IMG/VR virus record: IMGVR_UViG_3300042882_000911
Span: 1-23,284 of that record
Length of the DNA: 23,284 bases
Source: a virus
Reading direction: 5' to 3' (one strand)
Below the pieces are notes generated by a model. It was not told the origin of the DNA and searched no databases. It was given only the letters and a program-made list of their open reading frames with translations. The position numbers and the translations under genes were made by a program. Within the stretch, counting starts at the first letter, position 1. Each line of letters starts with the position of its first letter. Of the stretch, positions 3,421 to 23,284 are shown one piece after another.

Positions 3421-3442
3421 CGGGAAGATTAAAATTTATGGG

Positions 3443-3610
3443 TCATTTGCTGGATGTAGGCTTGGGCATCTCAGGCAGCGTGTAGCTGAATTGCCCGTAG
3501 TCGGTCTGGAGCGAGATGCCCAGCGTGCTGCATCCACCGAGGAGCAGGAGGGCTCCTACGGCAAACGCGGTCGCCAGGAGGCCGGTGACGATCTGGGCGG
3601 GAGGGATCAT
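3443..3610 (-). CDS. Small lipoprotein, possible outer-membrane spanin
   Basis: A 55-aa protein with a hydrophobic signal segment (about 5-24) ending in a lipobox LGGC, giving a lipidated Cys27 and a mature peptide of 29 residues rich in Pro, Thr and Ser. This is the form of a phage outer-membrane spanin (o-spanin), which disrupts the outer membrane at lysis. The gene is between a small membrane-protein gene and the lysin gene, as expected for a lysis cassette. The start at 3610 overlaps the upstream stop by ATGA. The preceding 55-aa membrane protein could be the inner-membrane partner but lacks the long periplasmic coiled coil usual for one. A superinfection-exclusion lipoprotein is an alternative. 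A lipobox and spanin role would imply a Gram-negative host. Confidence 0.65.
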   Translation of the reverse strand: MIPPAQIVTGLLATAFAVGALLLLGGCSTLGISLQTDYGQFSYTLPEMPKPTSSK

Positions 3611-3774
3611 TTCTTCTCGTTGCGGAAAATCTCGATGAGGGCTATGACCGCCGCCACGGCGCTGCCAATACTTTCCCAATGCTGGGGAGAAAGGCTCAAA
3701 CCAGCGAGGCCGCCGAGCACGGCCAAACCGCGAAAGGTGGACGGTTGTTTTAGGTGCGAGAGGAATTTATTCAT
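3607..3774 (-). CDS. Small membrane protein of the lysis cassette
   Basis: A 55-aa protein with a short basic N-terminus (NKFLSHLKQPSTFR), one or two hydrophobic stretches (about 18-30 and 36-50) and a charged C-terminus (FRNEKK). The ATG at 3774 overlaps the last bases of the holin-like gene by 8 bases, and its stop overlaps the lipoprotein start by ATGA. It may be a second holin, an antiholin or an inner-membrane spanin subunit. Similar ends (LRNKKHPHE upstream, FRNEKK here) hint that the two membrane proteins could be paired, but this is only suggestive. Confidence 0.65.
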   Translation of the reverse strand: MNKFLSHLKQPSTFRGLAVLGGLAGLSLSPQHWESIGSAVAAVIALIEIFRNEKK

Positions 3775-3949
3775 GGGGGTGCTTTTTGTTGCGTAGGATT
3801 GCGTAGAGGGAAGCGAGACCGACGAGGCAGCCGATGACGAGCGAAGCCACACGCAGCCACGCCTCCAGCTCCGGCAGCATGGAGAGCGTGATACCGCTCG
3901 CCGTAGCAAGCAGCCCGGTGAACGAGGCGGTGGCTTGGTGCGTGTCCAT
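3767..3949 (-). CDS. Holin candidate, two transmembrane segments
   Basis: A 60-aa protein with two hydrophobic segments (about 9-25 and 33-51) separated by a short loop containing PELEAW, and a basic C-terminus (RNKKHPHE). Small size, two membrane spans, a charged tail and position first in the block before the lipoprotein and lysin genes fit a class II-type holin. It starts 2 bases after the stop of the stalk-protein gene. There is no sequence family I can name, so the call rests on topology and context. Confidence 0.65.
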   Translation of the reverse strand: MDTHQATASFTGLLATASGITLSMLPELEAWLRVASLVIGCLVGLASLYAILRNKKHPHE

Positions 3950-3951
3950 TG

Positions 3952-11401: not shown

Positions 11402-12412
11402 TTACGCAGTGGCTGCGAATTTTCCAAGAACCTGCGGGTTGCTCACTGCTACGCCGAAGATGGCGTCGCAGAAGCCACGGCGGCCACCGCCACGGTCTTC
11501 AAGCTCTTCCATCCGAGGTTTGCGATTGAAGCCGATGGAGAGGAGGTCCATGTCGAGCACATAACCACGGGCGGCCGAGACGGCTGCTGCCGCGCCGTGC
11601 GCGAGGTAGGTGGACACATGCAGTGACAGGATGCCGAAGTCGCCTTCGTAGATGTCGATGGTGTTCACGATTTTCTTCTCCGAGACGTTGGAGTTGAATG
11701 TGCGCACGCTGGACATGACGTTGGTCGATGCGCTCTGGGTTCGGATGAAGTTTGTGAACGCACGCTTGAGCGCGACGCCGCAAACGAGGTCGTAGTTTCG
11801 GCGAGCGCGGCGCACGCCGTAGATGGACTGAAGAACGTCGATGACGTTGTTCTCTGTGAGAGAAGTGGTGGCAGTCGTGTTGATCGAAGCGGCTGGGGTG
11901 CGGAAGTTGACATCCACTGCGGTAGCCAAATCAGACTGCGCGGTGGAGCTGATCCATGAGCCGACGCCACGGGTCTTGTAGGGGGCTGCGCCGGATTGCA
12001 CCTGGCTGTCGTTGTCGGAGCCCATGATGGCTTCGATGTCGATCTTCAGCTCAACAAGGGCCTTGGCAGCGGACTTGTTGAACGCTTGCTTTTTGCCAAC
12101 TCCTGCTAAATCAGAGACTTGCTCCACAAGGTCATCCACCTGGAACGCGCGTCTTACTTTCTGAATTCGGCCGCTGAGGAGGACGCGGTTGGCGTGCTGG
12201 TCGTCGAAGCTGGAAACGTCATCGTTAGCGAGGACACCTGCTGTCTGCGGGTCGTTGTAGCGGTCGGCTGGCCACTGAAAAAGAACATTTTGAGGCTCCT
12301 TTGCCTTCTTGCACATTGAAAACAAGGGGGTGTCGCCGGGTTCGATGAGGACCATTGCGTCGGAGAGATCTTCGCGTTGGCCTTTGACTGTAGTGATGGG
12401 GGTTGCTGCCAT
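11402..12412 (-). CDS. Major capsid protein, SU10-type
   Basis: A 336-aa protein of HK97-fold capsid size. The N-terminal segment VKGQREDLSDAMVLIEPGDTPLFSM, then a tryptophan-containing strand and SGRIQKVRRAFQVDDLVEQV, matches the pattern of the SU10-type major head protein family (DUF5309). That family forms the icosahedral shell. Unlike many HK97-fold proteins there is no N-terminal delta domain to cleave; the separate acidic protein encoded just upstream serves as the likely scaffold. A strong terminator follows. The leader (TTAACACCCCCAAAAC) lacks a Shine-Dalgarno, notable for what should be the most highly expressed gene. Confidence 0.88.
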   Translation of the reverse strand: MAATPITTVKGQREDLSDAMVLIEPGDTPLFSMCKKAKEPQNVLFQWPADRYNDPQTAGVLANDDVSSFDDQHANRVLLSGRIQKVRRAFQVDDLVEQVSDLAGVGKKQAFNKSAAKALVELKIDIEAIMGSDNDSQVQSGAAPYKTRGVGSWISSTAQSDLATAVDVNFRTPAASINTTATTSLTENNVIDVLQSIYGVRRARRNYDLVCGVALKRAFTNFIRTQSASTNVMSSVRTFNSNVSEKKIVNTIDIYEGDFGILSLHVSTYLAHGAAAAVSAARGYVLDMDLLSIGFNRKPRMEELEDRGGGRRGFCDAIFGVAVSNPQVLGKFAATA

Positions 12413-12448: not shown

Positions 12449-13555
12449 TTAGTTGAAAAGTGAGGCGACGAAGTTTTCGGCGGCATCACGGTTTCCAGAT
12501 TTTTTAAGGGCTTCGAGCGGGTCGGATTGAGATTTGGTTTTGGGTGCGGCTGAGGGACTGACAACCTTGGGGGCCATGGCGGGCTTGGCTGCTGCGGTGG
12601 CGGCAGGTTTTGCCTTGGCTGTGGCGGCTTTCTTTTGGATGGCCTCGGCTTGCTGGAAGCGGAGGGCTTGGCCGCGTATGGCGTCGCCTATGACGAGTTC
12701 GAGGTTCGGCAGCTTGGCGATGCCGGGATACGCTTGCAGCGTAGCCATCATCATCTGCCGGGCTTGGGATTCTTCCTGGAACAACTCGGGGTAAACCTGC
12801 CGGGCTTCGTGCTGGAAACTCTCGCGCTGGGCGAGGTAGTTGCGGCGGGCGGGCTCTGCCTTGAGAATCTGGCGGGCTACTCGCAGGCGTTCTTGAAGCT
12901 CTTGCTTCGTGAACTTGCGCGTGCTGCCGTCTCCCATGGGCACTTCCACTTCGCCACCTTCGTAATCCGCCTTCGCAATGAGATCAGGCACATTGTCGAG
13001 CACGGTATTCGCTGCGGCGAGTCGGCTTTCGAGGGCTTCGGGCGTGGTGACATCCGCCAATGGGTCGGCGGCATCTTGCACCACGATAGGCTGGGCTCGG
13101 GTGAGCGCATCCTTGGCGGCGGCGAGTTCGGCTTGCAGGCTGGTGGCTTGCTCCTCGGCGCTTTTGGCACGGGCGGTGAGCTTGTCCACTCGCTTGGCGA
13201 GCTTCTTGACGGCGGGCGCTTCGGCAGACTCGGGGTCTTCCTCGGCGGGCTCCTCGTCGGCGTCTTCCTCGGCGGGGTCTTCGGGTTGTTCAGAATCTTC
13301 CGTGGAGTCGTCGGCATCCGTTTCCGGCGCGGCGGTTTCCTCGGGCTGATCCTCGGGGTTTATGTCAGTGGTGGTCTCATCCGCGTCTGTTTCCGGTATG
13401 GCCTCTGCGGCTTCCGGTGTCTCATCGATAGTCGGGAGTGTGATTCCCAAAGTTTCGATAACGTCGCCGATGCTTAGTGCTGTATCTTCCATGGTTTGTT
13501 GTGCGTCCAAGTCGCGGGTATGTGTCAGAACTGAGTCTGCGTGCGGGTCCGACAT
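12449..13555 (-). CDS. Capsid scaffolding protein
   Basis: A 368-aa protein placed immediately before the capsid gene. Residues about 45-114 are extremely acidic with repeated ETDAD and EDP-type motifs. Residues about 117-155 form a coiled coil (VKKLAKRVDKLTARAKSAEE). The C-terminal 80 residues include an Ala/Lys-rich hinge and end with DPLEALKKSGNRDAAENFVA and a short hydrophobic tip. This is the usual build of a phage scaffold, which directs capsid assembly and then leaves. The start is uncertain: an in-frame ATG at 13492 is also possible, and neither has a Shine-Dalgarno. Confidence 0.8.
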   Translation of the reverse strand: MSDPHADSVLTHTRDLDAQQTMEDTALSIGDVIETLGITLPTIDETPEAAEAIPETDADETTTDINPEDQPEETAAPETDADDSTEDSEQPEDPAEEDADEEPAEEDPESAEAPAVKKLAKRVDKLTARAKSAEEQATSLQAELAAAKDALTRAQPIVVQDAADPLADVTTPEALESRLAAANTVLDNVPDLIAKADYEGGEVEVPMGDGSTRKFTKQELQERLRVARQILKAEPARRNYLAQRESFQHEARQVYPELFQEESQARQMMMATLQAYPGIAKLPNLELVIGDAIRGQALRFQQAEAIQKKAATAKAKPAATAAAKPAMAPKVVSPSAAPKTKSQSDPLEALKKSGNRDAAENFVASLFN

Positions 13556-13644
13556 TTTCACGGACTCGCGGCGAGCAGTTCAGCACTCGCCTTTGAGTCG
13601 GAATCTGCCTGCCGATTTTTCAGAAGGGAATAGGCTGCTGGCGT

Positions 13645-13684
13645 AACGGGGCCAAACGGGCACTAACGGGACGAAACGGGCGCT
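13645..13684. repeat. Four 10-bp repeats with AACGGG core
   Basis: AACGGG occurs at 13645, 13655, 13665 and 13675, exactly 10 bp apart, each followed by four variable bases (GGCCA-, CACT-, ACGA- and CGCT-type). Ten-bp spacing puts each core on the same face of the helix, as expected for cooperative protein binding (operator array or iterons). Confidence 0.8.
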
Positions 13685-13698
13685 AAAAAGATTGCACT

Positions 13699-13725
13699 AC
13701 GGAGGACACGGAGCGCACGGAGGGA
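13699..13725. repeat. Three 9-bp ACGGAG repeats
   Basis: ACGGAGGAC, ACGGAGCGC and ACGGAGGGA follow one another without gaps. Similar GGAGGACACGGAG-type strings recur between genes in many bacterial genomes, so it could be a host-type extragenic repeat carried into the phage. It lies 15 bp from the 10-bp array. Confidence 0.7.
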
Positions 13726-13730
13726 GGGAA

Positions 13731-13967
13731 TTATTTCTTGGACTCGAATGCCTCGGCGCGTGTGCGCTCGATCTCTTCGCGCAAGGTGCGAAGGGCTTCC
13801 AAGCCGCCTGCGCTGTGGGCGAGCAGGCCGGGGTTCTGTGCCGTTTGCGGCATGCAGGTGATCTCGGCGGCGTCTTCGATGGCGTCGGTTATTTTTGCCA
13901 TGACCGTGCGGAACCAGAGTTCCTCGGGCGGCACACACCATGCGGCTTGTAGGTCTTCGGCACTCAT
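13731..13967 (-). CDS. Unknown 78-aa protein before the scaffold region
   Basis: A 78-aa protein, mainly helical, starting MSAEDLQAAWCVPPEELWFR and ending with a charged helix (LEALRTLREEIERTRAEAFE). The ATG shares one base with the TGA of the gene upstream (TGATG). An alternative TTG one codon earlier is less likely. There is no catalytic motif. It is the last gene of the small block between terminase and scaffold. Confidence 0.7.
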   Translation of the reverse strand: MSAEDLQAAWCVPPEELWFRTVMAKITDAIEDAAEITCMPQTAQNPGLLAHSAGGLEALRTLREEIERTRAEAFESKK

Positions 13968-14236
13968 CAAAAAGGAATGTCAGGAGACTCGGAGAGAGGC
14001 ACGGCGACTGGCTCTGCGGCGGGAGCGGCCTCGGTTGCCGCTTCGGTTTTCTTTGGCTCAAAGTAGAGTTTAAAATACTTTTCGCCGATGACCTCACGGC
14101 TTTCGTTCACATACGCGCTGATCCAGTAGGGAACGCCCTCGATGGTGCAGGAGCCTTTATGCGAAGGCTGCGTTGGTTTTTCCTGTTTTTTGTTTCGGCT
14201 CAGAGAGCCATCAAATCTGATGCGTTTCTCGTTCAT
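13967..14236 (-). CDS. Small protein with SSB-like C-terminal tip
   Basis: An 89-aa protein. Residues about 28-62 (CTIEGVPYWISAYVNESREV, then EKYFKLYFEPKK) look like a small beta domain. A linker rich in Ala, Glu and Pro follows, and the last residues are SPDIPF. This resembles the acidic DDDIPF tip of bacterial single-stranded DNA-binding proteins, which recruits partner enzymes. It is too short for a full SSB OB fold, so it may be a reduced SSB-like or partner-binding protein. The start overlaps the stop of the small HTH gene by ATGA. Its location among late genes is unexpected. Confidence 0.65.
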   Translation of the reverse strand: MNEKRIRFDGSLSRNKKQEKPTQPSHKGSCTIEGVPYWISAYVNESREVIGEKYFKLYFEPKKTEAATEAAPAAEPVAVPLSESPDIPF

Positions 14237-14385
14237 GCGAGTTTTTCCAGATCAGCGGCACGATACCAGGCGCGGCAGCCACGCTTGCGAAGTGGGCGCA
14301 GGATGCCTGCATCGATGAGTTTGGTGACTTGCTTTGCGCTGACCCCCAGGCGGGCCATGACATCGCGGCGACGGAGAAGTTTCAT
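14233..14385 (-). CDS. Small excisionase/AlpA-type HTH protein
   Basis: A 50-aa protein: KLLRRRDVMARLGVSAKQVT, then KLIDAGILRPLRKRG and WYRAADLEKL. This is the layout of the MerR-like helix-turn-helix of excisionases and AlpA-type activators: helix-turn-helix followed by a short wing. It encodes little beyond the DNA-binding unit. Placed just after the large terminase and before the structural genes, it may be a late-gene regulator or stand in for a missing small terminase. It is coupled by ATGA to the gene downstream. Confidence 0.75.
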   Translation of the reverse strand: MKLLRRRDVMARLGVSAKQVTKLIDAGILRPLRKRGCRAWYRAADLEKLA

Positions 14386-14415
14386 GCGACTTTTATTATA
14401 GGGGGCGGGTGTCAA
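14386..14415 (-). promoter_or_regulatory. TTGACA-N9-TATAAT element before the small HTH gene
   Basis: On the minus strand TTGACA (14415-14410), nine bases CCCGCCCCC, then TATAAT (14400-14395), with the ATG 9 bases later. It includes the terminase stop codon. Both hexamers are perfect but the spacing is far below 17. TATAAT alone could serve as a -10 box with a nearly leaderless transcript. Confidence 0.4.
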
Positions 14416-16115
14416 TAGCAGCCTCCTGGGCGGGCTCGCAGCATGGCGGGGTCTTCGTAGCCTACGCCGGAGAGCGTGATGTAGCGGAGGATGTCGATCC
14501 AATCTTTTGTCGCACCGCGTTTGCCGTCGGCACCGGTCCATGTCTTGAGCGCGTAGATGAGGTTTTTGCAGCGTTCGGAGATGTAGAGGCGCGGCGAGTT
14601 GAGGGCATCGACCGGCGCTTCCTCGTTGTAGGCAAGCCAATCGTTGATGAGCGTGACACCTTCCACGATGGCTTGCCCGCTGGTGGCGCGGAAGTCGAGC
14701 CCGATGCGGTCGCTGCATTGCTCGATGAGGGTTCGCACGCCTTCCTGCGTCATCGTCGGCGTATTGCCGTAGCGGCTATCCATCCAACGCTCGGCGGGCT
14801 CGGCGGAGTCGGCTTTCTCGGCGGCATCGATGATGCGCTTGTAATCCTCGAAGCCAAAACCGGCGCAGGCTTTTTGTGCTGGCCCAGGGCGGCCGTCTTG
14901 CAGCTTGCCATCCGCCTCGGCCCACGCGCCGGGATAGCCCACGCCCTCGATGTATTCGAGCTGGTCTGGCCACTCGCGGTAAATCCAGCACCGGCCATCC
15001 GGCGTGTAGCGGATCCAAAGCATGGCCCATGTCTTCCCCTCGCCAGGATCGACAAAGTGAAAGACCGTGCCATCCCCCGGCACCTTGTCGGCAGGCACCA
15101 CATGCACCGTGTCGCGGAATTTTGGGAACATGGACATCCTCGCCTTGGTCGGCACGCCGTAGGCACGCATGAGGATGCGCTCGCGGTTGCTGCCGCGCAG
15201 CTCGGTTTCCATGGCCTCGGGGTTGCCGTAGGGGTTGTCGGAGGTGTGGAAATAAACGACGCGGGCTTTCTCGCGGGTGCATTGCTGGCTGCGCGGCACT
15301 TGCTCCAAGCCGATCAAGTTGCCATCGCGGTAGCGCGGCAGGAGCGGGGCATCGACTTCCTCAAGCGTCTTCGCGCCGTCGAGGTATTCTTTGACGGTCG
15401 TTGTGTAGCCTTCAATCGGCGTAAAGCCAATACCCAGCTCGCCGTCGCGGGTGAGCAAACGGAAGCGCAGCGCCTCGATCCAATCCGGCGTCACCAATTC
15501 ATCGGCCCATACGAAATCCAACTCCGAGCCTTCGATAGAAGTGACATCCATGCTGTAAAATTTGAACCAACACTGCGAGCCATTCGGCAGCACCAGCGAG
15601 TTTTCGGTGAAGCCGCCTTTCTGCGAGTAGGTGATGTTTGCCACGCTGCCTTTTTTGAGTTTGCCACTTCCGGCCGGCCGCCATTCCTGCGGCAGATACT
15701 CCCAAATGTAGGGTTGCTGACTCTGGATTGACGCGGCCTCTGTGCTTTGCAGGCACCACACCTTTGCGCCGGGTTTGTTGACCAGGTGCTGCATGGCCCG
15801 CCGCGCATAGTAGCGCGACTTGCCCGAGCGGTTGCCGCCGAGGATGAGAAGCTCCGTGACGCCTTTGGGGAATTTTTCCCGCAGCTCCGAGAATGCGGCA
15901 TCCGCCCGCGCCCAAGCGGGATTCTCCCACCCGTAGCGCCAAGGGTCTTCGACCATGCGGGCAATCTGCTCCTCGCGCTCGCGGTGGATGGCGAGCAACT
16001 GCGCCTCGGTGGCTCCCAGGCGTTGCCCCCGATACTGCACGACAAAGGTGCCGTCGGGTCGGCGGCCCTCGATGACGATCTCTAAAATGACTGGGCTTTT
16101 GGTTTGAGGAATCAT
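14412..16115 (-). CDS. terL: Large terminase subunit
   Basis: A 567-aa packaging motor. The ATPase domain has Walker A GGNRSGKS (93-100) and Walker B DFVWADE (200-206, catalytic Glu206), with the coupling segment GIGFTPIEG near 229-236. The C-terminal nuclease domain has FVDPGEG (Asp356), a possible second acid at Asp446 (WMDSR) and a final WIDILRY (Asp541). This is the RNase H-like nuclease that cuts concatemers. The size is usual for the family. The ATG at 16115 overlaps the preceding stop by ATGA, so a longer upstream start is rejected. No recognisable small terminase gene is adjacent. Nearby packaging partners might be one of the small HTH proteins. Confidence 0.93.
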   Translation of the reverse strand: MIPQTKSPVILEIVIEGRRPDGTFVVQYRGQRLGATEAQLLAIHREREEQIARMVEDPWRYGWENPAWARADAAFSELREKFPKGVTELLILGGNRSGKSRYYARRAMQHLVNKPGAKVWCLQSTEAASIQSQQPYIWEYLPQEWRPAGSGKLKKGSVANITYSQKGGFTENSLVLPNGSQCWFKFYSMDVTSIEGSELDFVWADELVTPDWIEALRFRLLTRDGELGIGFTPIEGYTTTVKEYLDGAKTLEEVDAPLLPRYRDGNLIGLEQVPRSQQCTREKARVVYFHTSDNPYGNPEAMETELRGSNRERILMRAYGVPTKARMSMFPKFRDTVHVVPADKVPGDGTVFHFVDPGEGKTWAMLWIRYTPDGRCWIYREWPDQLEYIEGVGYPGAWAEADGKLQDGRPGPAQKACAGFGFEDYKRIIDAAEKADSAEPAERWMDSRYGNTPTMTQEGVRTLIEQCSDRIGLDFRATSGQAIVEGVTLINDWLAYNEEAPVDALNSPRLYISERCKNLIYALKTWTGADGKRGATKDWIDILRYITLSGVGYEDPAMLRARPGGCY

Positions 16116-16294
16116 GGCCGCCTCAGAAGGGGTTGCAAAATTTTCGCCTTTGTTTTGTAGCCAAGCCGCACGCAAGTTTCGTGAGCTTCGCGCAAAACAG
16201 CACTCTCAGGATAAACGCCCGTGATGCGGAAATACTTGGTTTGAACCCGCAAATCATCAGCGGATGTATGCACCAGACAATCTACCTCTTTCAT
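16112..16294 (-). CDS. Unknown 60-aa protein upstream of terL
   Basis: A 60-aa protein (MKEVDCLVHTSADDLRVQTK, then a basic end KTKAKILQPLLRRP). It has ATGA overlaps at both ends and so lies firmly in the reading chain into terL. No family was recognised. It is too short and lacks an HTH pattern to be called a small terminase. Confidence 0.7.
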   Translation of the reverse strand: MKEVDCLVHTSADDLRVQTKYFRITGVYPESAVLREAHETCVRLGYKTKAKILQPLLRRP

Positions 16295-19133: not shown

Positions 19134-20036
19134 TTATGCTGCGGCTTGAGTGCGATGTTTTTCACGCACCCAAGCTTTCATGGAGTCAGGGAGAAGCGAC
19201 CAGGTGGAGAGGTTGCATTCGGGAAATTCAGAGGTCACAAGGTCTTGCCAGCCTTCCGGTTCAGCGGAGACTGCGGGTGCTGCCGAGAGGCTCATGCCCG
19301 AGCGGCCTGCCCAATCGCGGGCACGGGTCACCTCGGCGAGGATGTTGTTGAGAAGCGTGGATAAATCCTTGCGGCGGAACTGCGCGGCCGCGCCTTCTTT
19401 TTGCCGGTAGGCCCACTCCAGGAAGCGCCAATCCTCTTCGCTCACGTCCGCCGCCGCCTTTTTATTTTTCTCCCAAGCACGGGTGGCGGATGAGTCGAGA
19501 GGTGTCTCGGCTCGAATGTGGAAGAGGTTTCGGAAGCGGGTGAGGACAGGATGCGGTGGTGCCGGTGTCGGTTCGCATTCCATGACCAACTCGATGTCCC
19601 CTTGGGGACTTATAGGGGTATTATCTATTCTATTCTTATTTAGGTCATCGCCCCGTGATATGGCCGTCATATCGGTTGTATGACGGTCTGATGACGAGCC
19701 TCTATATTTTGATGACGCTTTAGCCATCACTGCGCGTCTTTTTGCAGACGCTCCATTATGCTCATCGAAGCGTGCAATCTCCACGCCATCTTCATCTTCC
19801 AAAATCCAACCGACTTTTACCAAGGCGGCTCCAAGTCCTTTCAAGCCCGTCTTGCGGTCGATAGCTCCGAGGGAGAGCCCTTCCAGCCGTCCATCCGTGC
19901 TCTGCTCGTCGGCCATTGACCATATCCAATACAGCCCGCCGATGACCTCGCGCTCGGGCTTGTTTGTGATGTCGCAAATCTTGGCGATCCGAGGATCGTC
20001 CCAAAGGTTACTGCGCATTTTTATCCAGTTTGACAT
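19134..20036 (-). CDS. Phage replication initiator with winged-helix N-terminus
   Basis: A 300-aa protein. The N-terminus (SNWIKMRSNLWDDPRIAKIC, then REVIGGLYWIWSMADEQS and LVKVGWILEDEDGVEIARFD) is the winged-helix domain typical of phage replication proteins that bind the origin or help load DnaB. A flexible linker (about 100-170) follows, then a helical C-terminal domain (RAWEKNKKAAADVSEEDWRF, STLLNNILAEVTRARDW). The ATG at 20036 is preceded by an A-rich leader. It is encoded two genes ahead of the helicase, which supports the role. The origin itself was not identified with confidence. Confidence 0.8.
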   Translation of the reverse strand: MSNWIKMRSNLWDDPRIAKICDITNKPEREVIGGLYWIWSMADEQSTDGRLEGLSLGAIDRKTGLKGLGAALVKVGWILEDEDGVEIARFDEHNGASAKRRAVMAKASSKYRGSSSDRHTTDMTAISRGDDLNKNRIDNTPISPQGDIELVMECEPTPAPPHPVLTRFRNLFHIRAETPLDSSATRAWEKNKKAAADVSEEDWRFLEWAYRQKEGAAAQFRRKDLSTLLNNILAEVTRARDWAGRSGMSLSAAPAVSAEPEGWQDLVTSEFPECNLSTWSLLPDSMKAWVREKHRTQAAA

Positions 20037-20038
20037 AC

Positions 20039-20251
20039 TTATTTTTTCTTTCTTTTTTGAAGCTGCGAATCCCACCAAACGCTCCGAGTGCGGACGCCTC
20101 GACTTTCCAACCAACGGTCGCAAGCAGCCGAGATCGCCCGGCTGTCGCGCACAGAGAGCCAACCCACCCGCGCATCGTCAGGCCCGAGGGCTTGCTCCGA
20201 TTTATCTTGGCGGGGGTGTTGCTGGTGTAGGTCCAATTCAATGCCTCTCAT
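20039..20251 (-). CDS. Unknown 70-aa basic protein
   Basis: A 70-aa protein whose ATG overlaps the exonuclease stop by ATGA. A competing frame (20008-20241) lacks any such link, so this one is preferred. The product contains WLSVRDSRAISAACDRWLES and ends in Gln-Lys-Arg-Lys-rich residues. It is basic and may bind nucleic acid. The stop is 2 bases before the initiator start. Confidence 0.65.
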   Translation of the reverse strand: MRGIELDLHQQHPRQDKSEQALGPDDARVGWLSVRDSRAISAACDRWLESRGVRTRSVWWDSQLQKRKKK

Positions 20252-21205: not shown

Positions 21206-22042
21206 TTAGTTAGTGGAAAGCTCCTCAGCGGCCTCCTGCGATACAGAGGCCCCTTTGCATAAAATTTTCTGCTCACCCAAATCAGTGCTATGTAATGGGG
21301 GGGTGTCCGAAAATCCGACCCCCTCCCCCCCCTCTTGATCGACCGCCACGGCCTCGACCTCGACCGGCTCGACGGCGCAAGTGGTGTCTAAAGTGGTGTC
21401 CCGCCTGCCGTCTGCGTAGGCAAAGCCTTCTGATTCGGTATCAGAGACCATGTCAACCAGGCATCCCGAGACGGTTTCGGCGCCCGATCCGTCCGACCCC
21501 TTTTGTCCCGACCCGCTCCCGTGTGGACCGGTTACCGGGACAACTTCGGCCTCGAGGAGCGGCAGGCTGGCCAGCATCTCGCTTAGTTTGTCCTGGGAAA
21601 CCTCAACCTTCTCCACCCGGCTTGTCGCCTCACCCGATAACAACTGCAGCTTGTCCACCATCACAGCGGCCACGATGGCCGCGTCCTTGGCGTTGTTGAT
21701 AGTCGGCACCAACTCAACGACCCGCTCCACCGAAAGCCGCGCCGCAGTCCGCACATTCCGCAGCAACTCCTTTTTATGCTGCTCTATAGAAATTCCTTCC
21801 CGCTCTTGGACAGCCGCCACCGTGTTGCGGCTGACTCCCAGGGCTCGAGCCATTGCCGACATACTCAGCCCCTCGGCGCTCATGCGGCAGATCGCCCGGT
21901 AAACCTCCGGCCGGCGGGCAAGCAACCGCTCACCGCTAAACTCTCCAGTAGCCTCGAGCTTCTCAGCCCCGATTTCCGCCTCCGCAAAAAGAAAAGGCGC
22001 GGCAGACTCCAAGGCGTCGGCTTTCATCAAAGGGGATTCCAT
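21206..22042 (-). CDS. HTH DNA-binding protein with acidic low-complexity tail
   Basis: A 278-aa protein from the ATG at 22042. Residues about 44-82 contain a helix-turn-helix (AICRMSAEGLSMSAMARALG, then VSRNTVAAVQEREG). A helical domain follows (about 88-165). The last 110 residues are acidic and rich in Gly and Ser, probably disordered. The fold could serve as an early regulator, or as a small-terminase-like protein, since no other small terminase is evident. The coding DNA has an 8-base G run (plus strand 21325-21332) and nearby 5- and 7-base C/G runs. A TTG start 13 codons upstream is possible but less likely. Confidence 0.7.
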   Translation of the reverse strand: MESPLMKADALESAAPFLFAEAEIGAEKLEATGEFSGERLLARRPEVYRAICRMSAEGLSMSAMARALGVSRNTVAAVQEREGISIEQHKKELLRNVRTAARLSVERVVELVPTINNAKDAAIVAAVMVDKLQLLSGEATSRVEKVEVSQDKLSEMLASLPLLEAEVVPVTGPHGSGSGQKGSDGSGAETVSGCLVDMVSDTESEGFAYADGRRDTTLDTTCAVEPVEVEAVAVDQEGGEGVGFSDTPPLHSTDLGEQKILCKGASVSQEAAEELSTN

Positions 22043-22064
22043 AAAAAACAAAAAACGGCGGCGG

Positions 22065-22289
22065 CTATGTGATCGAAGCAACCCAAGGCTTCCGGCCCGG
22101 CCTCAAATACACAGAGCCCCCAATGCGGCCCTCCTCGAGCACCCGCTTGATGCTGGATTCCGGAATTAAAATGCGATCCCCGAGGCGGACATGCGGGAAT
22201 GTCCCATCGTAGAGGCGCGACTGAACTGCCGATCTCGACAGGCTCAGGAGCTTGACGAGCTGCGCCGGTGAATAATGCTGCTCGATCAT
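22065..22289 (-). CDS. Excisionase/AlpA-type HTH protein
   Basis: A 74-aa protein: MIEQHYSPAQLVKLLSLSRS, then AVQSRLYDGTFPHVRLGDRI and LIPESSIKRVLEEGR. This is the MerR-like HTH plus wing (helix-17 type) seen in excisionases and small phage activators. The ATG at 22289 overlaps the upstream stop by ATGA, so a longer upstream start is rejected. Without an integrase in view it is better treated as a regulator than as an excisionase. Confidence 0.8.
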   Translation of the reverse strand: MIEQHYSPAQLVKLLSLSRSAVQSRLYDGTFPHVRLGDRILIPESSIKRVLEEGRIGGSVYLRPGRKPWVASIT

Positions 22290-22393
22290 TCCCCGATCCT
22301 CCAGGCTACGAGAGCCAAAAAAGCCGCAGGCCCGAGGGCGCAAAACGCCTCCCAGGTCCAAGTAATGTAGTGGATGGCATCAGGGGTGATCAT
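22286..22393 (-). CDS. 35-aa single-span membrane microprotein
   Basis: A 35-codon gene with ATGA overlaps at both ends. The product has a polar N-terminus and a hydrophobic segment (about 15-32, AFCALGPAAFLALVAWRI), one probable membrane span. No family. It is in the first coupled block after the regulator, so an early membrane role such as superinfection exclusion is possible, though unproven. Confidence 0.55.
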   Translation of the reverse strand: MITPDAIHYITWTWEAFCALGPAAFLALVAWRIGE

Positions 22394-23150: not shown

Positions 23151-23284
23151 CCAGCCACCAGCCACCAGCCACCAGCCACCAGCCACCAGCCACCAGCCAC
23201 CAGCCACCAGCCACCAGCCACCAGCCACCAGCCACCAGCCACCAGCCACCAGCCACCAGCCACCAGCCACCAGCCACCAGCCAC
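23151..23284. repeat. 7-bp tandem array, GCTGGTGG on the minus strand
   Basis: The unit CCACCAG is repeated without error: 18 complete copies (23155-23280) plus partial units at each end, running off the right edge. Each unit with the next base reads GCTGGTGG on the minus strand, the E. coli Chi octamer, so there are 18 overlapping copies. It is the last feature and could continue outside the window. Heptad-coded frames in it are not genes. Confidence 0.95.

Follow-up and report, generated by a model that had tools for sequence, protein, structure and literature searches.

The nearest described fold to the protein considered here is that of BldC of Streptomyces, a 68-residue MerR-like protein (PDB entries 6AMA and 6AMK). 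On direct repeats with the element AATTnnnnC, BldC molecules line up head to tail, and Arg30 reads the C-G pair of this element (PMC5859096). The repeats are spaced 9 bp apart at whiI (PMC5859096) and one helical turn apart at smeA-sffA. BldC is mainly a repressor, acting at whiI from positions -50 to -80 (PMC5859096). On a 40-bp segment of attP, four RdfS molecules are bound, one for every 10 bp (PMC11963761). Both RdfS and Xis (of phage lambda, and of Pukovnik, 4J2N) form head-to-tail filaments with about one protomer per 10 bp, and their main role is excision at attP. Apl, a small protein of coliphage 186, binds cooperatively to direct repeats 10-11 bp apart and represses promoters (PMC7498355); it acts at attP and at the early pR-pL region, on seven sites and with low specificity. 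In the TerS/pac systems of SPP1 and SF6, an HTH DNA-binding domain (winged in some, 7LW0) is encoded beside the terminase large subunit (TerL) and its target contains repeats (PMC4737164). The binding of pac by known TerS proteins is typically weak and largely sequence-independent (PMC4737164, PMC9611059).

The window analysed here is the whole stretch of 23,284 nucleotides. The hexamer AACGGG is located on its plus strand at 13645, 13655, 13665 and 13675, in steps of exactly 10 bp, as originally predicted. All genes in this region are on the minus strand, and in the coding direction the unit of the array is CCCGTTnnnn, repeated four times from 13680 down to 13641:

13641..13680, minus strand: the array in decamer register on the coding strand, four decamers
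13680-13671, minus strand: array decamer 1, CCCGTTTCGT
13670-13661, minus strand: array decamer 2, CCCGTTAGTG
13660-13651, minus strand: array decamer 3, CCCGTTTGGC
13650-13641, minus strand: array decamer 4, CCCGTTACGC

In a scan of spacings from 7 to 30 bp, with the heptamer satellite at the end of the window excluded, AACGGG is the only hexamer of the window having four copies at one constant spacing. None of 1500 dinucleotide-preserving shuffles produced a four-copy hexamer of this kind, and 126 produced three copies. The array is real, far beyond chance. The excluded satellite is a perfect repeat of CCAGCCA (23151-23284), within which the contig ends. It is also found in a complete genome (G001, rotated), as 133 bp at about 31.6 kb, and as short runs in two further genomes (G008 and G013).

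The gap holding the array (13493-13730) had been described as the only real one in the structural module, which is roughly correct, though the region 3421-3951 is also thinly coding. The order of the genes on the minus strand is TerL, HTH50, SSB-like, p79, the gap, the scaffold-position gene and the capsid gene:

14412..16175, minus strand: terminase large subunit, directly upstream of HTH50 (phrog_2, PF03237)
14233..14385, minus strand: HTH50, a 50-residue winged-helix protein and the predicted binding partner of the array (concordance of recognition helix and array, tree, fold)
13967..14236, minus strand: SSB-like protein between HTH50 and p79 (phrog_18154, single-strand DNA binding, 1.4e-7)
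13731..13970, minus strand: p79, a conserved 79-residue protein, last gene before the gap (same place in relatives)
12449..13492, minus strand: scaffold-position gene, 347 residues, first after the array (start ATG at 13492, from the alignment of relatives)
11402..12412, minus strand: SU10-type major capsid protein (PF17236, 8.6e-38; phrog_1328)

The genes downstream of the array had been named as scaffold and capsid. The capsid assignment is supported by PF17236, while the scaffold is putative, named so for its acidic composition and for lying before the SU10-like capsid gene; family searches with this gene gave no match, nor did those with p79. Judging from the alignment, ATG 13492, about 150 bp past the array, is almost certainly the start of the scaffold-position gene. 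A longer version starting from GTG 13561 is rejected, as relatives have frame-shifting indels between the GTG and the ATG. The SSB-like protein is very short, has a DIPF tail and is located away from the other replication genes. The replication-initiation gene (19134-20162) is about 6 kb from the array. The early region contains a second Xis-like gene (22065-22361), and a conserved protein with an HTH and a helical hairpin (21206-22081) heads the early operon. The latter may be a TerS or a regulator; its model is poor (pLDDT 56) and its PDB matches are uninformative.

The AF2 model of HTH50 (pLDDT 84) is a MerR-like winged helix. Its top matches in the PDB are the BldC-DNA complexes (6amk and 6ama), with a TM score of 0.80, 32-33% sequence identity and a Z score of 7.9 that is middling on the program's own scale; Pukovnik Xis (4j2n) is also among the best matches. 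The Pfam HTH_17 score of the protein is under the curated cut-off, and PF13338 scores higher. A PDB sequence search returned repeat-protein artefacts and weak GlnR matches only, so that the likeness to BldC is carried by the fold match. HTH50 is a lone winged helix like BldC, 50 residues in all, with no dimerisation or effector domain. Residues 9-58 of BldC can be aligned without gaps on residues 1-50 of the HTH50 model, which places Arg30 on residue 22. This residue is thus predicted to read a base from the same helix position. The specificity residues 17, 18, 21 and 22 are Ala, Lys, Thr and Lys in the window.

The array also resembles the BldC sites in being made of directional direct repeats, and may share in part their pattern of an AT element, four bases and then a C. 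There are clear differences, however, between the two systems. HTH50 is encoded by a phage, and it falls into sharp specificity classes that are switched together with the operator. The array consists of exactly four 10-bp repeats at one site, whereas BldC uses 9-bp repeats in varied number at many promoters.

The capsid, TerL and HTH50 proteins served as queries against viral contigs and brought up many relatives. Among the non-redundant loci, 70 have an intact gap, and each of these bears four decamers, neither more nor fewer, in exact steps of 10 bp, in keeping with the predicted binding array phased to one helical turn. Relatives that keep the flanking genes without the array were looked for, and none occurred. 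The distance from the last array core to the scaffold-position ATG is 145-152 bp in the relatives. The spacer between p79 and the array, in comparison, varies freely from 14 to 326 bp, and reaches about 2.6 kb in one locus (L112), where it carries two ORFs, one transposase-like and one methyltransferase-like, and the array itself is left intact. This spacer is a hot spot for insertions. It contains TCCGTG-type tandem repeats (CTCCGTGTCCTCCGTGG) in 50 of the 70 loci, at 13684-13730 in the window.

A pattern search of 17 near-complete genome records (37.8-43.2 kb) found one array in each, 16 with the type A pattern and one with the type B pattern (see below), and no additional arrays elsewhere in them. 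An apparent second copy in IMGVR_3300010334_000008, considered as a cos site, was rejected as an assembly overlap at the contig ends: overlaps of 93-283 bp are present in six genomes, and their length is 127 bp in three of these, the size of a k-mer.

The family bearing the array infects Verrucomicrobia bacteria. One relative (L280) is integrated in a Chthoniobacter flavus MAG, on contig CAMCXK010000004.1 at about 44.5-76 kb, with host genes up to about 44 kb and phage genes from there to the end of the contig. The only near cultured relative is Phage C75C1, with 33% identity in TerL and 32% in MCP; in its annotated gene order, the portal and other larger genes follow TerL.

Three types of array core are observed, CCCRTT (type A), TCGGTT with variants (type B), and a third (type C) in a single locus, L038. 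The residues at positions 17, 18, 21 and 22 of HTH50 are AKTK, SKTK, TKTK or TKDK with type A arrays, ERRT with type B and EWRQ with type C. The core type matches the recognition helix in 64 of 64 loci, with no exception. CCCGTT is still paired with type A HTH50 proteins only 61-69% identical to that of the window, and the agreement is therefore not mere relatedness. A separate scan recovered the Chthoniobacter chromosomal copy, which has Lys18 and Lys22 together with CCCGTT repeats, three of them intact and the fourth decamer degenerate.

The trees separate HTH50 from its neighbours. The array labels can be placed on the HTH50 tree with two changes, as few as three states allow, while 5-7 are needed on the trees of ssb, p79, terl, scaffold, mcp and the leader. 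For p79, ssb, terl and the leader, trees that unite type B in one clade are rejected by AU tests, and the leader tree by itself requires three or more changes of type B on account of its starred branches. On the TerL tree, six of six independent pairs are concordant (sign test, p 0.03), with fewer pairs available on the p79 and ssb trees. The exonuclease tree also fits one switch (30 loci holding the gene, five of them type B), and linkage to other early genes is therefore possible in those 30 loci. On this comparison of trees, the array and HTH50 appear to have switched together several separate times, while the intervening and flanking genes have other histories. The original prediction had named the protein at 14233-14385 as a natural candidate for the binding partner, and both the concordance and the joint switching, in which the genes lying between do not take part, argue for it.

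A type B locus (L067) and a type A locus (L176) are the clearest illustration of such a switch. They are 96% identical in TerL, 94% in SSB, 96% in p79, 100% in the leader and 98% in the scaffold, and 88% identical directly after the array, against 46% in codons 15-30 of HTH50 and 42% in the array. Essentially all of the difference between the two loci lies in the recognition helix and in the array.

The residue and the base that switch are also those that the BldC structure would predict. Position 1 of the core is C in all 256 type A decamers with Lys22, T or G in type B (Thr22), and T in type C (Gln22). All types retain the TT at positions 5-6 of the core, with four bases between it and position 1 of the next decamer. 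Type A thus has the TT-N4-C portion of the BldC element AATTnnnnC, while the first AA of that element is not conserved. In types B and C the base and the residue both depart from the BldC pattern, as a BldC-based model predicts, and the model places residue 22 opposite position 1 of the core. The co-variation as a whole strongly suggests that HTH50, as a row of four on the array, would control the switch to head production.

The segment between the array and the scaffold-position gene contains two further elements:

13601..13640, minus strand: block between the array and the leader, candidate activator-dependent promoter (ungapped in 70 sequences)
13528..13590, minus strand: pseudoknotted leader RNA (pair counts with controls, loop complementarity, RNAalifold)
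13590-13586/13575-13571, minus strand: leader helix P1 (RNAalifold)
13569-13567/13545-13543 and 13565-13561/13551-13547, minus strand: leader helix P2 (pair counts)
13581-13576/13533-13528, minus strand: leader pseudoknot, P1 loop with a downstream segment (complementarity in five versions)

The first 40 bp past the array core are ungapped in 70 of 70 loci, with columns 51 and 73-75 invariant on weighting. The conserved positions of the block are T at 13630 and GCA at 13608-13606, and the two hexamers in which they lie are separated by 17 bp; we infer a promoter role for the block. A promoter scan of the window gap found no sigma-70 -35/-10 hexamers, which is weakly consistent with a promoter that depends on an activator. 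No terminator was found on the coding strand of the gap, and across the relatives one is located upstream in 5 of 70. On these two results, transcription may begin further upstream, with the leader as part of a longer transcript.

The leader structure is paired in 89.8% of cells in the alignment of relatives, compared to 33-46% when it is slid along the alignment. The pair count is too low for the L018 group, where MAFFT misplaces a gap in P2, and for L196, L200 and L280, where it does so in the pseudoknot. All three helices show compensatory changes on both sides, and their G-U pairs indicate an RNA rather than a DNA cruciform. The pseudoknot exists in five versions (GAACTG/CAGTTC, GAACTA/TAGTTC, GAACGG/CCGTTC, ACCGG/CCGGT and CCCAG/CTGGG), which were checked independently of the MAFFT alignment. 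A search with the Rfam covariance models gave no match to the leader; the one hit, to a miRNA on the opposite strand, is at the level of chance (E 2.6). The leader is a candidate for a new, previously undescribed RNA family.

In the best explanation, a dedicated transcription switch controls the head-gene operon and has the array as its operator, bound by HTH50 in a row of four and most likely activating; to this we assign a probability of roughly 0.6. Four HTH50 protomers on the array are a natural model in view of how BldC, RdfS and Apl bind their repeats. Each of the four decamers, one helical turn long, would take one HTH50 protomer, and the protomers would be arranged head to tail, in the manner of BldC, phage Xis, RdfS and Apl on their repeats. 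The wing would lie over the invariant TT, and the recognition helix would read the variable core, with residue 22 reading position 1. The row of four would be located directly upstream of a non-canonical promoter, most likely activating it, and the transcript would start with the pseudoknotted leader, followed by the scaffold-position gene, the capsid gene and further virion genes. We infer the binding itself, the four protomers, the position of the promoter and activation over repression. The fixed geometry to the head genes, the free variation upstream and the structured leader together favour an operator linked to a promoter.

In the alternative that survives best, HTH50 would use this array to keep the head operon repressed, either in a lysogen or in the early stage of infection. 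BldC and Apl act mainly as repressors, and a tyrosine integrase is encoded in all six complete genomes examined, which together with the integrated copy means that late genes must stay silent in the lysogen. Repression is nonetheless an unlikely reading. The array is located upstream of the candidate promoter block and not over it (yet BldC represses whiI from -50 to -80), the HTH50 gene lies among the replication and terminase genes and not with a lysogeny repressor, and no canonical promoter needing repression was found. Activation is tentatively preferred because the array is upstream of the conserved block.

The array may instead be a pac site, with HTH50 being TerS or working with it to mark the genome for the adjacent large subunit. 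As in TerS/pac systems, an HTH protein is encoded beside TerL and the target contains repeats. HTH50 has a weak match to phrog_57 (TerS, 9e-4), its structural matches include DNA-binding domains of the TerS type (7lw0, 7lwr, 7lxs and 6hn7), and no TerS was found elsewhere in the genome. There is one array per genome, and the complete contigs begin at varied places, as permuted genomes would. However, the HTH50 chain ends at residue 50 and has neither an oligomerisation nor a TerL-binding domain, its strong, co-selected specificity is unlike the binding of known TerS proteins, and a pac site has no need of a fixed spacing to a leader RNA and an ATG. On balance we regard this role as improbable. 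A combined function as a minimal switch for packaging or particle assembly, in which the row of four HTH50 molecules, arranged head to tail and not as a ring, marks the DNA for the adjacent terminase and also governs the head genes through the leader, is more doubtful still.

The original prediction had left open whether the array is a late-gene control site or an origin. Its geometry best supports the former, and replication iterons bound by the phage initiator are very improbable. Direct repeats in a gap and a nearby SSB-like gene would suit an origin, but the initiator gene is located elsewhere and is not co-inherited with the array (an initiator tree uniting type B in one clade fails the AU test, p 3e-10, 20 loci), and the array type tracks HTH50. 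The GC skew turns most clearly near the integrase, about 28 kb away from the array, and this turn is indistinguishable from an effect of gene orientation. Finally, a role of the array in attP, with HTH50 as a recombination directionality factor, has the fold and repeat geometry of Xis, RdfS and Apl and the integrase of the family members in its favour, but is less likely still. Of the six complete genomes, five have the integrase about 27-28 kb downstream of the array (about 13 kb in the opposite direction) and one has it 23.5 kb downstream; the array is interior, at 56.2 kb, in the Chthoniobacter chromosomal copy; and the early region has its second Xis-like gene. An integrase query gave no match in that copy, which runs to the end of its contig.

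An operator for the head genes would work like the BldC, Xis and Apl systems. HTH50 shares the winged-helix fold with Xis and RdfS, and like them is predicted to form a head-to-tail filament, though on an array that is not near an attachment site. The likeness to Apl includes the small size of the phage protein and the repeat spacing, and for HTH50 the cooperative binding and the regulation of a phage promoter are predicted; unlike the sites of Apl, there is a single four-site array, before the head operon and away from the integrase. The placement before the head operon, the strict copy number, the single array per genome and the repeated paired switches appear to be new. Within the limits of the open-access literature searched, no phage late operon controlled by such a row was found.

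The locus provides a natural series of matched pairs of winged helix and operator, with specificity apparently switched jointly several times within one phage group, the changes being limited to a small number of residues in the recognition helix and of bases in each decamer. Recognition by filaments of the BldC/Xis type, usually called low in specificity, thereby becomes directly testable by partner swaps. If true, the marking of DNA for the terminase would couple capsid synthesis to genome selection. For the temperate phages of Verrucomicrobia, for which no studied late-gene control was found, the array and HTH50, with a candidate undescribed pseudoknotted leader RNA beside the switch, suggest how capsid production may be timed.
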